Assembly (NCBI GenBank): GCA_030066985.1
Contig: JASJAN010000003.1
Span: 124,001-188,000, forward strand
Length of the DNA stretch: 64,000 bases
Source: Desulfobacterales bacterium
GTDB lineage: Bacteria > Desulfobacterota > Desulfobacteria > Desulfobacterales > JAHEIW01
Reading direction: 5' to 3'
How positions within the stretch are numbered: the first letter of the stretch is position 1; the number at the start of each line of letters is the position of its first letter. Under the pieces are notes generated by a model. It was not told where the DNA came from, searched no databases, and saw only the letters and a program-made list of their open reading frames with translations. A program made the position numbers and the translations under genes. Positions 4,889 to 33,562 of the stretch are shown in pieces.

Positions 4889-6478
4889 CTATTCTTTTTT
4901 CGGGTGACATGCCACACAATTCGTTGCCACCGGTTTTTCAAGGTTCATGGCCTCGTGACATTCCATGCACTGACGGTGGTAGGCGGCCATGAGACCCGGT
5001 CTGTTCGGGTCCCGCTCATCAAAAGGCCGGCCATGGCAGCTGGCACAGCTGGGCGGTTTTTTAGCCGCCGGACTATGATGGTGACACGCCTGACAGAGCG
5101 TGTTTTTGTCAGCGTGAAAATAGGCCACCAGCTTGTTATCTTTAATATTGTTGGACAGTGTCTGGACGATCTTACGATGCGGCAACTTCACCGCCGCATA
5201 CTGGTCTTTTATTGCATTGATTTCCACCGTTTCAGGAATATCCTCGGGCGGGTACATGGCGCTTAGGGGTTCGCGTGCGTTCAGATACATAGCAGCCAGT
5301 TCTTTTTCTTCGGTCTGCTGAAGACTTGCGGCCACTTGAGCCACATCTGCCATATGACAGGCCTGACAGGCAGCGGGATCCTGCTGCCGGGTTTTGGCAA
5401 TACTGACGTGACAGCCGGCGCACTCGGGGGAACGCTGGTTTATTTCATGACACCCCGCGCAGCTCATTTTGACATTCAAGCGGTGCATGGATTCCTCGAG
5501 GGTCACAAATTTGCCTTCTTTGGTACCCTGTAGCGTGTGGCACTGGACACAGGCGTTTAAATTGGCATGATGGCACACCCGACAGGTATCATTGTATTCT
5601 TCGTGAGACTTGTGGCTGAATGGCACCATCTTCATACGCGTGGCCTGCTGGGGATCTGTGATTCCGGCCTTGCTGGTGCGCACAAAAACCGTATCTGGCT
5701 GATTGCGCTGCATGCGCGGGACTTCCTTGAGCCTTTCAATCAGCTTCTGTTGGGCGGGGTCATGACAACCGCCGCAGGTTATCGGGCCGGCATCATCGAA
5801 TTTGGCCAGGGTTTGGCGATGGCAATTAATACAGTCTATATGTGATGCCTCGCGCAACGAGATTCGGTTTTCCACAGTAACGTCTTGGTGACAATAGCGG
5901 CAGGTGCCTTCTTTGCCCTTGGCGTAAAACAGCTTCTTAGTGACTTCATCAAATTCGTGATGGCAGCGTTCACACTTTTTATCCTGCGCTTTAGAATGCC
6001 GGTAGTGCAAAGACCGGTCCATACCGATCGGCTCCCAGATAGAGGTAAGATCCATTCGTTCCTGATGGCACTCGCCGCAGGTCAGCGGCCCGCTTTTGCC
6101 ACCGCCATCCGCGGTTTGCTGATGGCAGGCAATGCAGTTGGTGTGGTAAACGTCCATTACCGCCTGGGAGGAGGAATCTTCAAGGCGCATGTATTTAAAT
6201 ACCAGGCGGTCTTTTTCGGTTAAATGACAGGCTTTGCAGTCCTGGTTTTTCTTTTCCAGCGCTTCGGTATGCTTCTGGTGCAAAAATGTTACCGCCGGTC
6301 GCTCCAATTTGCCGAATTGCTGCATGGAATCGATCTGGATAATGTCGGCCCGCTGCTGCATCTCGGCTTCGGTCGGGTTTTTGGCCCCGAAATTCCCGGA
6401 ACATGTTAGACCAATCGAAACAGCAAATACGATCACTGGGATGCTTGTCAGGTTAAGCCGTAATTTACCGATTTTCAT
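4889..6478 (-). CDS. hmcA: HmcA-like 16-haem periplasmic cytochrome c
   Basis: High-molecular-weight multihaem cytochrome of about 529 residues. I count sixteen CxxCH motifs, from CKACH near residue 80 to CVACH at the C-terminus, the number known for Desulfovibrio HmcA. It exchanges electrons with periplasmic hydrogenases or small cytochromes and feeds the Hmc complex. The N-terminus is a signal peptide; a cysteine follows the hydrophobic stretch (SIGLTC) but the box is not canonical for a lipoprotein. I prefer the ATG at 6478, eight bases after AAGGA, over an upstream TTG. It is the first structural gene after rrf2. Confidence 0.93.
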   Translation of the reverse strand: MKIGKLRLNLTSIPVIVFAVSIGLTCSGNFGAKNPTEAEMQQRADIIQIDSMQQFGKLERPAVTFLHQKHTEALEKKNQDCKACHLTEKDRLVFKYMRLEDSSSQAVMDVYHTNCIACHQQTADGGGKSGPLTCGECHQERMDLTSIWEPIGMDRSLHYRHSKAQDKKCERCHHEFDEVTKKLFYAKGKEGTCRYCHQDVTVENRISLREASHIDCINCHRQTLAKFDDAGPITCGGCHDPAQQKLIERLKEVPRMQRNQPDTVFVRTSKAGITDPQQATRMKMVPFSHKSHEEYNDTCRVCHHANLNACVQCHTLQGTKEGKFVTLEESMHRLNVKMSCAGCHEINQRSPECAGCHVSIAKTRQQDPAACQACHMADVAQVAASLQQTEEKELAAMYLNAREPLSAMYPPEDIPETVEINAIKDQYAAVKLPHRKIVQTLSNNIKDNKLVAYFHADKNTLCQACHHHSPAAKKPPSCASCHGRPFDERDPNRPGLMAAYHRQCMECHEAMNLEKPVATNCVACHPKKE

Positions 6479-6528
6479 CTGCAAGATCCTTCGTAAAAAA
6501 AATTGAGGTTAACCTATCAGATTACGAT

Positions 6529-6969
6529 TTATATCTTTTTGCCATTAATAGTTTTCTTTTCCACTTTGAGTAAGTCGTGGATGGTTGTTTCATCATAAAT
6601 CTTAAACATGGCGGCGTCGACTTTGTTCCACATCGGCGCAAAGGCACACTGACCGTCAAAGGGGCAATCGCCCTTGGACACGCAGGCAACGCATTCAGCT
6701 TGTCTGCTGGGGCCTTGCATGAATCGCAGGATATCACCAACGGAAATCTCTTTAGGGGAACATTTTAGAAAATAGCCGCCATAGAATCCGCGTTTGGATT
6801 CGACCCATCCGCTGCTCTTAAGCTGTCCAAGGATTACTTCCAGAAAGCGCATCGGAATAGATTGGGCCTCGGCGATTTCGGATATTTTTTTGGGTCCTTG
6901 ACCCAAATACTTGGCAAGTTCAAAAATCGCCCGTAACGCGTATTGGTTTTTCTTTGGCGTAATGGCCAT
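6529..6969 (-). CDS. rrf2: Rrf2-family transcriptional regulator of the hmc operon
   Basis: DNA-binding regulator of 146 residues. An N-terminal winged helix (YALRAIFELAKYLG through FYGGYFLK) is followed by a C-x5-C-x5-C cysteine group (CVSKGDCPFDGQC) spaced like the Fe-S ligands of IscR and NsrR, so it may sense redox or iron-sulfur status. In Desulfovibrio vulgaris rrf1/rrf2 lie after the hmc genes and influence their expression; here the regulator is the first gene, 50 bp before hmcA, directly behind two operator-like palindromes. Autoregulation together with hmc control is the simplest reading. Confidence 0.9.
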   Translation of the reverse strand: MAITPKKNQYALRAIFELAKYLGQGPKKISEIAEAQSIPMRFLEVILGQLKSSGWVESKRGFYGGYFLKCSPKEISVGDILRFMQGPSRQAECVACVSKGDCPFDGQCAFAPMWNKVDAAMFKIYDETTIHDLLKVEKKTINGKKI

Positions 6970-7000
6970 GGCTTTTAATCCCGAGTGTTCGGGTAGGGTA

Positions 7001-7050
7001 TTTCTCGACTATTTTAGTCGGGAAGTTTCTTGACTCTAATAGTCAAGAAA
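7001..7050. promoter_or_regulatory. Two abutting 25-bp inverted-repeat operators (candidate Rrf2 sites)
   Basis: Copy 1 at 7001-7025 is TTTCTCGACT-5 bp-AGTCGGGAAG; copy 2 at 7026-7050 is TTTCTTGACT-5 bp-AGTCAAGAAA, a perfect 10-bp inverted repeat. They touch without a gap and lie just downstream of the -10 box of the rrf2 promoter, where a bound dimer would block transcription. Confidence 0.8.
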
Positions 7051-7056
7051 GAGCTA

Positions 7057-7085
7057 AACATAATCAAGAAAGCCATCAAAGTCAA
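7057..7085 (-). promoter_or_regulatory. Sigma70-like promoter of rrf2-hmcABCDEF
   Basis: On the minus strand TTGACT (7085-7080) and TATGTT (7062-7057) are separated by 17 bp. The expected start point falls inside the tandem palindromes at 7001-7050. The region upstream to about 7145 is very AT-rich. Confidence 0.65.
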
Positions 7086-7263
7086 TGGTTTTTTTTTTAA
7101 AAAATGCTGTTTTTTTATATATAATATTAATAAGTTATATAATATTACTACATAGTAGGATGTGACATACGACACCGTGGTAATTGTCATAATAGGCCGT
7201 CAGAAAAAGGGTATTGCGGATATAGTTTTGGGCATATTGACGAAAAAATCGAATATTTCTGAA

Positions 7264-7345
7264 GCAGGTGCCAGAGGTCAGAAAACAGAGGACAGAAAAG
7301 CGCTTTAATTTCCATTAATTCAATATTTCAATCTGTCTTCTGATA
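7264..7345. repeat. Intergenic repeat of the GACAGAGG/CTGTCTTC family
   Basis: Opposed arms built on short quasi-tandem units (AGGTCAG, ACAGAGGACAG on the left, CTGTCTTCTG on the right) flank about 40 bp of AT-rich sequence. The same unit types recur at 7940-8088, 23727-23777 and 57432-57467. The gap 6970-7426 otherwise holds only the rrf2 promoter and operators. Confidence 0.6.
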
Positions 7346-7426
7346 GTGGAACTTAGTAGAAAAGAAAGGCAGCGCCATGAGTGGCCCTGCCCTTTTTGTT
7401 TGTTGTCATCTATGTAAAGATGCCGG

Positions 7427-7729
7427 TCAGTGAATAGCGATCTGATGCGCATCCTGCATTGGATCTTTAAACGGTATCGTGACCTTTAAGACACCATTTT
7501 CAAATTTTGCGCTGGCGTCTTTTGCATTCACCGGGCAACAGAAAGCTGCTGTGGTGACATATTCAAAGTCTTTGCGGGGTGCGGTGAGACTGAAGCTGTC
7601 TTCAAGCATCTTAAGATTGATATCTTTTTTATCGACTCCCGGAAGACAAATTTCCAGGTTTAATTTCTGGCGGTCATCATCCACATATGAACACACCTCT
7701 GCGGCCATCTTAAACTTATCTTCTGCCAT
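7427..7729 (-). CDS. Small heat-shock protein, Hsp20/alpha-crystallin family
   Basis: Protein of 100 residues that is almost entirely an alpha-crystallin domain; ATP-independent holdase chaperones of this family keep unfolding proteins soluble. The core pattern is visible: [20 protein letters not shown], then [12 protein letters not shown] near the C-terminus, the usual GxLxITxP-like strand. It is shorter than typical Hsp20 because the flanking arms are minimal, and it carries an unusual CC pair (AAFCCPV). The start at 7729 is chosen because GGGAGG lies a few bases upstream. The inverted repeat at 7778-7804 is a possible control site. Confidence 0.85.
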
Positions 7730-7777
7730 TGATACCACCTCCCTTAACTTAACCGCAGTGACGGATAGTTTCATTTG

Positions 7778-7804
7778 ATATGAAGAACACCATGTTCATC
7801 ATAT
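7778..7804. promoter_or_regulatory. Inverted repeat upstream of the Hsp20 gene
   Basis: ATATGAAGAAC (7778-7788), 5 bp, GTTCATCATAT (7794-7804): eleven-base arms with one mismatch, ending 49 bp before the hsp20 start. Position suits an operator, but no regulator is known here. Confidence 0.5.
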
Positions 7805-7939
7805 GAGATTATGGTAATGCACAAACATTTAATTGCAAGCGTGGGGCAGCCGCTTGGCTCAATGTGCTGTTTAACAGTTCAATATTGACAATACCAACCG
7901 GCGGTTTATTATGGCGGTATTGGTGTTAGCCAAAAAAAG

Positions 7940-8088
7940 TGTTCAGGTGTCAGGTGTCAGGATTCAGAAGACAGATGTCAGACGACAGAAGACAGATCCA
8001 AAATTTGAAAATTGAAGCTGCCTTTCTATCTTCTGTTTTCTGTTCTCTGTCCTCTGTTTGCTGACACCTGAAACCTGACACCTTACAC
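7940..8088. repeat. Composite inverted repeat, GGTGTCAGGTGTCAGG family, copy 1
   Basis: Left arm CAGGTGTCAGGTGTCAGG followed by GACAGA-type units; right arm CTCTGTCCTCTG then CTGACACCTGAAACCTGACA. The two arms are reverse complements in nested order, so the whole can fold on itself. It fills most of the gap 7730-8169 before coaE. Confidence 0.8.
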
Positions 8089-8169
8089 GTATAATTAGAC
8101 CGCATTTTGTGAAGTACTTGAGCAGCGCAAAACTGGATGGCACAATCTTAACCGAGAAGGAGATTACAG

Positions 8170-8778
8170 GTGCAGGTCATCGGGCTTACAGGCGGAATTG
8201 CCACCGGTAAATCAACCGTATCTGCCATGCTAAAAAAAGCAGGGGCCATTATTATCGACGCCGACCGTATTGCCCGGGCAGTGGTTAAAAAAGGATTGCC
8301 GGCCTATCGGGAAATCGTCGAATATTTTGGCACTGACATTCTGCTGCCCGACGGTGAGATTAACCGTAATGCGCTGGGTGATATTATTTTCAACGATCCC
8401 GCAGAAAAAAAGCGCTTAAACAGCATAGTGCACCCACGGGTCGCAGCAGAAGTCGACCGTCAACTTAAGCAGTTCGAAAAAACCGATCCGCAATCACTTG
8501 TTGTTCTGGACATACCACTGCTGTTAGAAGCCGGCATGCACGCAGATTTAAGCGAGCTCATCGTCGTCTATGCGCCGCAGCAACTGCAGATCGAGCGCTT
8601 GATGCATAGAGATCGCATTTCAGAAGCCGAAGCCCTTGCCCGTGTGCGCTCTCAAATACCGATAGGGGAAAAGAAAAAAAAAGCCACCATCGTCATTGAT
8701 AATTCAGGCACCATCGACCACACCCGCCAACAAACCCTTGACATATTTAAACGACTAAAAGACAGTACAGCAAGATAG
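8170..8778 (+). CDS. coaE: Dephospho-CoA kinase
   Basis: Last enzyme of coenzyme A synthesis: it phosphorylates the 3'-hydroxyl of dephospho-CoA with ATP. The P-loop is GLTGGIATGKST at the N-terminus, followed by IIDADRIAR, and VVLDIPLLLEAG near residue 115, all hallmarks of CoaE; length (202) is normal. The start is GTG at 8170, six bases after AAGGAG. The 246 bp after the gene (8779-9024) contain no gene I recognise; one open frame there lacks a good start codon. Confidence 0.95.
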   Translation: MQVIGLTGGIATGKSTVSAMLKKAGAIIIDADRIARAVVKKGLPAYREIVEYFGTDILLPDGEINRNALGDIIFNDPAEKKRLNSIVHPRVAAEVDRQLKQFEKTDPQSLVVLDIPLLLEAGMHADLSELIVVYAPQQLQIERLMHRDRISEAEALARVRSQIPIGEKKKKATIVIDNSGTIDHTRQQTLDIFKRLKDSTAR

Positions 8779-32835: not shown

Positions 32836-33474
32836 TCATTGCATAATTTTAGATTCAGGGTGCTTTTTCTGCCATTTCTCCCAGCGTGTATCTTCAAAGT
32901 CCAGCATCGGCAAGCGCCGGTTATAATAAACCCCCTGGATGCCCCTCAAACCTTTTTTATCTGGATACCATAATGAGCCGGTTTCTCGATCGTATAAAAC
33001 AAAGGTGCTGTCGTAAGTCCAGCCCGATGGCACCAGCTCGATGGCGCGCCCATCTATCCGGCGACTGTACACAGCCGCTAAATTGACAAGCGGTCAGTAG
33101 GCCGCTGCTATGGGTTTTTCTCCGACATGGCTATTGGCGACTTCGTGCCGCCAGAGTTTGGATACCGCATAGGCGTTGGCATGCTCGCCTTCGGCAATGC
33201 CAATAACGCGTTCATTTCTTCTGGCCGTTTGATTCGCTTCGCTAAACTGAGAATCATCAAGCGGGGTAAATGCATTACGCCCAATTCCATGTTCAAATCG
33301 ATGGGGCTTGAAACCAATCGATACGGCCTGGGTGATATCCCAGCGTTCACCATGCCGGTCGATGATGTAAGTTTTGCCATTTTCCTCGATAACCCGTGAA
33401 AACGCCTGACCCATTGCAATCCCTAAAATCAAGGATAGTATCAATACCTTCAAAAAAACAATGATTCTAAACAT
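32836..33474 (-). CDS. DUF3179-family exported protein with in-frame TGA, candidate selenoprotein
   Basis: Reading through the TGA at 33094-33096 gives one 212-residue protein with a signal peptide (FLKVLILSLILGIAMGQAFS). Both halves are clearly DUF3179: GIGRNAFTPLDD, VIGIAEGEHANAYAVSKLWR, HEVANSHVGEKPIAAAY before the TGA, and PLVNLAAVYSRRIDGR, YDRETGSLWYP after it. The family motif is YCPLxG..., and here it reads YUPL, so the TGA replaces its conserved cysteine. The frame is open to TAA at 32836. I start at ATG 33474, six bases after AGGAGG. Function of DUF3179 is unknown. Confidence 0.82.
33075..33093 (-). promoter_or_regulatory. Short hairpin after the DUF3179 TGA, possible SECIS
   Basis: Minus strand: CCGCT (33093-33089) begins immediately after the TGA and pairs with AGCGG (33079-33075) around the loop TGTCAATTT. 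A second weak hairpin (GGCTGT/ACAGTCGCC) follows. It is less convincing than the one in the rhodanese gene. Confidence 0.4.
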
Positions 33475-33562
33475 TTCCATCCTCCTGAAAAATTACAAGA
33501 TTTCAAACAAAATCGTTCTTGGGTAGAATTTTGTCGGTTGGAGGGATAAATAACTTACAGAT

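Follow-up and report, generated by a model that had tools for sequence, protein, structure and literature searches.

The analysed window is a stretch of 64,000 nucleotides of contig JASJAN010000003.1 (positions 124,001 to 188,000) from a Desulfobacterales bacterium. On its minus strand, an orientation that the first-pass annotation had not given, lies a gene (33474..32836) whose product is assigned to DUF3179 (PF11376) by Pfam, with an E-value of 4.1e-32 and 112.2 bits where the cut-off is 27. The match covers profile positions 7-148 out of 292, i.e. the first half of the profile and not the two domains of a full-length member. When the sole internal TGA is taken as a residue, the frame spans from ATG 33480 or ATG 33474 to a second TGA (Table 1), and, read from ATG 33480, its translation begins with MEMFRIIVF and ends with HPESKIMQ. 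The internal TGA stands in the context PIAAAY-U-PLVNLAAVYSR. A Shine-Dalgarno-like motif precedes ATG 33474 by 6 nt and leaves 0 nt to ATG 33480, and three family relatives (L049, L050, L090) possess a Met at the position of ATG 33474, none having one two codons earlier. Because of this spacing and of the Met in the three relatives, ATG 33474 is the likelier start. The residue numbering of the structural model (Sec129, His112, Glu113) counts from ATG 33480.

Table 1. Features of the DUF3179 locus (coordinates within the window)
Feature	Position	Strand	Remarks
Short DUF3179 selenoprotein gene (predicted)	32836..33474	-	212 aa from ATG 33474 (214 from ATG 33480); TGA terminator 32838..32836
Shine-Dalgarno-like AGGAGG	33481..33486	-	6 nt before ATG 33474 (read from sequence)
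N-terminal hydrophobic helix (residues 2-24), putative signal peptide or membrane anchor	33409..33477	-	model and N-terminus scan
Single Rieske-like-fold domain with Sec (residues 96-203; predicted)	32872..33195	-	predicted model and structure alignment
Conserved His112-Glu113 pair	33142..33147	-	probable proximity to Sec, from strand order
In-frame TGA, probably read as Sec127 (Sec129 in model numbering)	33094..33096	-	conserved Cys column of the family
SECIS-type hairpin GCGGCUG-UGUA-CAGUCGC	33061..33078	-	7 bp, 4-nt loop, -10.5 kcal/mol

In the window, 36 frames of similar size can be read through a TGA, five of which, including this gene, are covered over less than half of their length by other long ORFs; a read-through frame is therefore not rare by itself. 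What is not attributable to chance is the family similarity on either side of the TGA, together with the location of the TGA at a conserved column. Alignment with relatives places it at the cysteine of the YCPL motif, as the first-pass annotation had proposed. Its further claim, that the frame and the family similarity continue across the TGA, is confirmed by the Pfam match, by a frame open up to a fixed end and by the dN/dS ratio between the window gene and its nearest relative, which amounts to 0.093 upstream of the TGA and to 0.079 downstream: purifying selection is equally strong on both sides. The codon at this column is TGA in all four family genomes compared, and the stop codons found at one fixed end column in four family genomes are TGA, TAG, TAA, and TGA. 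Since the end column is fixed while the stop codons differ, the second TGA of the window gene is its terminator. Six family genomes were considered, four of which encode the whole gene with its TGA, while the gene is cut by a contig end in G299 and G297 returns no match. Synteny around the gene, judged by eye, is kept within the genus.

By profile comparison, the long form of DUF3179 is a tandem duplication of a single domain, the halves compared in 25 long rows scoring 132 against each other as compared with at most 16.5 in 100 column shuffles. In the aligned consensus, the second copy is devoid of the His-Glu and CPL motifs. The short form, of which the window protein is a member, comprises one domain copy, an N-terminal extension, and a hydrophobic start. 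A hydrophobic N-terminus is present in 44 of the 53 short rows and a lipobox-like motif in 22 of the 53, the start codons having been chosen by script, and the proteins of the short branch are predicted to be exported. The third residue after Sec is a Val in the window protein; in the 53 short rows, the four commonest residues at this position are V (44), I (4), A (2), and Q (1), while it is A, C, T, or S in 23/23 long Sec rows and T or C in 16/17 Cys rows. The row set used for the residue and duplication counts dropped rows of 480 aa or more, whereby one Cys row was lost. The window protein contains no cysteine at all, making an internal U/C pair impossible, and 30 of the 53 short rows have none beyond residue 45.

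The first alignment contained five short members, all five with TGA in the place of the family Cys. Relatives were then identified at 38 loci by scanning species genomes, and these loci carry 43 copies: 42 of these possess the TGA at the motif, one a Ser, and none a Cys, with the reservation that the scan used patterns taken from Sec members and may be biased toward them. Profile searches, run on 395 and 82 genomes, are less prone to this bias. In the 395 genomes of the own phylum, all six full-length short matches exhibit the TGA at the motif; two partial matches stop short of the column: L107 is cut by a contig end, and L100 is a C-terminal remnant (1498-1680, genome G331) whose upstream part is absent in any frame from the 3.2-kb locus. 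In the 82 genomes of a second phylum, the 23 matches below E 1e-37 all contain an internal TGA, one of them also a TAA, and TGA occupies the column itself in all 15 copies read. The next match, L142, is a 271-residue, short-like distant relative with a Cys (CILAD). In a tree of 94 rows, the short branch together with L142 reaches 99 percent SH-aLRT and the short branch alone 83, the placement of L142 being unsure on account of its long branch; duplicate loci (the same genome reached by another route), L064, L069, L083, L091, and the two partial matches were excluded from this tree. The record titles of the short-form loci name Desulfobacterales, other Deltaproteobacteria, Nitrospirota, Calditrichota, KSB1, Latescibacterota, Bacteroidota, and Handelsmanbacteria, but the phyla are fewer than the names because the genomes labelled KSB1 and Bacteroidota group with a Calditrichaeota genome. 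The short branch thus uses selenium almost without exception. For the family as a whole, 297 genomes drawn from the phylum gave DUF3179 matches in 31 genomes (33 places), and the 31 places where the motif was read comprise 20 Sec and 11 Cys forms.

Some individual copies depart from the common pattern. At locus L072, three short DUF3179 genes lie together (5309-8200); the first is the Ser form, with the motif YSGFFEKTAIYER replacing UPLV in an open frame, and paired short genes occur in L074, L075, and L084. In a Handelsmanbacteria MAG, the short copy L083, one of the 42 with TGA, has an in-frame TAG (6232-6234) immediately ahead of the HQVAN motif; the Sec TGA comes further on, and the frame continues to either side. 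The short copy L141 contains an in-frame TAA. Among the long forms, L028 (G263) has a second in-frame TGA (TTWKUWKK), which may be a sequencing error, a second Sec, or decay.

Downstream of the UGA, the window transcript is predicted to form a SECIS-type hairpin, the loop of which lies 22 nt past the UGA. The bacterial SECIS model, as printed in PMC13188914, asks for a loop of 3-9 nt, a stem of 4-16 bp, a G in the first two loop positions, a distance of 16-37 nt from the UGA, and an energy of at most -7.5 kcal/mol; the window hairpin agrees with all these printed points, its UGUA loop having the G in second position. Tested at this fixed position against synonymous codon shuffles, the hairpin has a mean z of -2.02 over 54 short Sec genes, which represent 47 distinct regions, and of -1.91 over 22 long ones, which represent 21, as compared with +0.16 in 18 Cys genes (including L142, L093, and L094), bearing in mind that the rows are related, hence not independent, and that the test was chosen after the whole-stretch folding result was known. 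Duplicate loci were left out of it, and its motif rule skipped L072:5309, the N-terminal piece of L083, and L042. Some Cys genes fold at this position too, the lowest z among them being -1.88. Over a wider stretch after the TGA, the mean z is -1.56 (45 genes) versus +0.08 in a control stretch. The whole-stretch folding energy was discarded as a weak discriminator (-0.97 for 20 Sec loci versus -0.35 for 11 Cys loci, in a set mixing long loci with five short Sec loci). Pairing in the stem, observed versus shuffled, amounts to 96.6% versus 94.6% in short group 1, 82.6% versus 80.0% in short group 2, 83.0% versus 76.6% in the long Sec genes, and 42.9% versus 47.9% in the Cys genes; covariation is weak here, the strong conservation of the codons leaving little room for it. 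The hairpin, at 33078..33061 in the window and in the homologous stretches, adopts two registers in two short branches, GCGGCUG/CAGCCGC and GGCUG/CAGCC, which arise from different synonymous alanine codons, the encoded LAAVYSR peptide being nearly identical.

The first-pass annotation had named selA, selB, selC, and selD as genes to look for, and a lack of selA, selB, or selC as contrary evidence. All four are present in the genome, selC as a tRNA-Sec gene with the anticodon TCA, and selD carries an in-frame TGA of its own (CGUA). The same genome encodes a second DUF3179 protein, of the long form (L001), with a TGA at the same column (FUPLT). Among 52 chosen genomes, a selA hit at E 1e-30 is found in 30 of the 36 with a Sec form and in 15 of the 16 with Cys forms only; it is therefore permissive rather than diagnostic, and selA was abandoned as an uninformative marker of Sec forms, being found alike with both. 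Six Sec-form genomes return no selA at E 1e-30, one of which is rated 100% complete. At E 0.001, selA is found in 32 of the 34 searchable genomes with short genes, a count from which L080, L084, and L085 (same genome represented by another locus) as well as L064 were left out.

AlphaFold2 modelled the window protein with a mean pLDDT of 94.9. After realignment of 969 chains, the first 30 of the best 50 listed are Rieske proteins or Rieske-domain oxygenases, with Z-scores from 6.9 to 3.3, covering about residues 96-213 of the model, while unrelated chains start at Z 2.7. The best Z-score, for predicted models only, is 6.9 for the window protein (95 residues aligned, 3.0 Å) and 8.0 for a long Cys homologue (90 residues aligned, 2.8 Å; pLDDT 88.4). 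For the latter, all of the best 50 rows listed, involving both domains, presumably have the Rieske fold, as judged in part from their titles, and the matches listed include two small subunits of nitrite reductase, a subunit that is Rieske-like and devoid of the cluster. Foldseek places Rieske proteins in the first six rows for the long model, none being significant; at E 0.001, it retrieves no PDB entry with either of the two models. The comparison of DUF3179 and Rieske sequence profiles scores 15.8, which is not significant since 100 shuffles reach up to 17.5, and the ligand patterns CxH...CxxH or CxH...CxxC occur in 0/94 DUF3179 rows. Therefore, from these Foldseek and profile results and the absent ligand motif, we speak of a Rieske-like fold and not of a Rieske protein; on the models, the window protein probably adopts a Rieske-like β-fold devoid of the iron-sulphur ligand motif. 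No thioredoxin-fold rows are among the matches listed for the two models. An early idea, in which UPL and His-Glu fell on the Rieske ligand boxes, was dropped: the strand order assigns Sec to the turn that joins strands 3 and 4, and the non-significant profile alignment undercuts the idea as well. Separately, relatives encode Rieske-like proteins (L166, L168, L170-L174) with a C-x-H first box and a CCS-type second box that departs from CxxH. A comparison of model m8778860ce7ce with a viral structure library reports one match, an uncharacterised Indivirus ILV1 protein (E 1.2e-5, 236 residues, 16% identity). By sequence, a PDB search reports a lectin as its best hit (E 0.17) and NCBIfam no match for the window protein; over 44 members, NCBIfam gives a single match to one member (E 0.007), taken as chance.

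The genomic surroundings do not name a substrate. Among the 252 flanking ORFs clustered (up to 4 per side, 38 loci), the commonest family occurs in five loci, is outer-membrane-like by eye, and lies beside the KSB1/Calditrichota-type copies. The Desulfobacterota loci exhibit no conspicuous partner beyond the synteny of the genus, and no conserved operon partner indicating a substrate is found across the 38 loci. Downstream of the short gene in L051, L059, and L086 lie neighbours that, by eye, resemble an ArsR-type regulator and an arsenite-methyltransferase-like protein. In the Thiothrix subterranea plasmid (L094), the Cys-type DUF3179 gene adjoins a gene annotated as a GDCCVxC domain-containing (seleno)protein and is also beside a DUF4395 gene and a thioredoxin-domain gene.

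Selenocysteine at this position is well supported by the sequence data, and codon 127 would almost certainly be read as such by the bacterial Sec machinery, directed by the hairpin starting 15 nt downstream. If instead the TGA were a nonsense mutation, translation would stop there and the remainder of the gene would be decaying. This is scarcely credible: standard annotation would indeed yield a 128-residue ORF, and broken or partial copies exist in other genomes (L083, L141, L100), but the TGA is retained in same-genus as well as distant relatives, the frame remains open to its fixed end, and both the selection after the TGA and the ensuing hairpin favor selenocysteine, the reading preferred by the first-pass annotation. 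The additional frame-breaking changes that it had named as contrary evidence did not materialise either, nearly all TGA frames of the relatives being otherwise open, with purifying selection acting on the four of the family that were tested, and the broken copies not being near the window. Some bacteria possess unusual tRNAs that read UGA, and the codon might thus be decoded as cysteine or another residue. Among the literature matches listed for UGA-reading tRNAs, none deals by its title with such decoding; this explanation is highly improbable in view of the complete Sec system, including tRNA-Sec, and of the hairpin, which accompanies the TGA forms and on average not the Cys forms, while a general UGA-reading tRNA needs none.

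The role of the selenocysteine is a matter of more tentative proposals. The N-terminal hydrophobic segment would export the single-domain protein, and, from the strand order, Sec would sit at a strand end in a hairpin turn with the conserved His-Glu pair at the same end. As the window protein is itself cysteine-free, we propose a one-selenol reaction, in which the selenol would act outside the cytoplasm, reducing an oxidant or an oxidised substrate, and would then be regenerated by an external thiol or a partner protein; we hold this reaction possible, at slightly under an even chance, and we infer only in this sense the redox role suggested by the first-pass annotation. Its main rival is a metal site, where the Sec selenol would bind a metal together with His112 and Glu113 in a metal sensor, a scavenger, or a mononuclear enzyme. 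The His (45/53 short rows) and the Glu (53/53) would be located at the Sec end, no cysteine is available for pairing, and the protein is predicted to be exported, all of which would suit a metal ligand; against it, the His column contains a Phe in 5/53 short rows and no recurring metal genes lie beside the gene, save for the three loci with ArsR-/arsenite-methyltransferase-like neighbours. Such a site is unlikely. As to the fold, the Rieske likeness may reflect a common β arrangement in an otherwise unrelated protein, since the structure aligner itself notes that Z-scores under 8 can do so, a range that includes the short form, and neither sequence profiles nor Foldseek give a significant match. 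Two separate models, comprising three domains, nevertheless yield Rieske-led lists, with a gap to the unrelated rows in the first, and an unrelated fold is rather doubtful. Our overall best explanation, which we hold with good confidence, is a functional, single-domain Sec-containing DUF3179 protein, predicted to be exported, with a probable Rieske-like fold and a possible one-selenol redox function. The chances are about even for the broader proposal that DUF3179 is a clusterless Rieske-fold family with Sec/Cys and His-Glu in a different turn, the single-domain branch of which would be committed to Sec across phyla.

The assignment of selenocysteine to DUF3179 is not new. The family is tabulated as a selenoprotein family, with a UxxC/T motif, in PMC9312934 (2022) and PMC13188914 (2026), and the former credits Zhang and Gladyshev 2007 for these selenoproteins. 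The published members belong to the same Pfam family and have Sec at the same conserved Cys column as the window protein, and their UxxC/T type is present in this genome too, as the long UPLT member L001. In contrast, the window protein consists of a single domain where they have two, carries UPLV in place of UxxC/T, and lacks Cys. According to PMC9312934, almost all selenoproteins have Cys homologues; the only Cys relative found for the short branch is the distant L142. The predicted fold resembles that of the iron-sulphur Rieske domains and of the small subunit of nitrite reductase, from which DUF3179 differs by the absent ligand pattern, by the lack of significant sequence kinship, and by a Sec that, from the strand order, would be in a different turn from the iron-sulphur ligands. 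Most characterised selenoproteins have a thioredoxin-like fold, as stated in PMC13188914. The thioredoxin-fold UxxC/CxxU selenoproteins likewise exchange Cys and Sec at one conserved position, but the window protein has no partner cysteine and falls outside the UxxC/CxxU pattern. The deep-Sep paper reports three unnamed hypothetical selenoproteins. None of the short UPLV form, the duplication, and the Rieske-like fold is mentioned in the literature searched, which is a weak statement as DUF3179 is rarely named there; to that extent, the single-domain UPLV branch, the tandem duplication of the long form, and the Rieske-like models would be new.

This uncharacterised family thus divides into single-domain and duplicated forms, each of which now has a structural hypothesis. 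The short-form genes would be cut at their TGA by ordinary annotation. If the proposed reading is true, DUF3179 would represent a class of selenoenzymes built on a fold without a Sec example among the literature matches listed, and the window protein would work without any cysteine. A branch that nearly always uses Sec, on a different predicted fold and here in a cysteine-free protein, would offer a clean place to ask what selenium brings as compared with sulphur.
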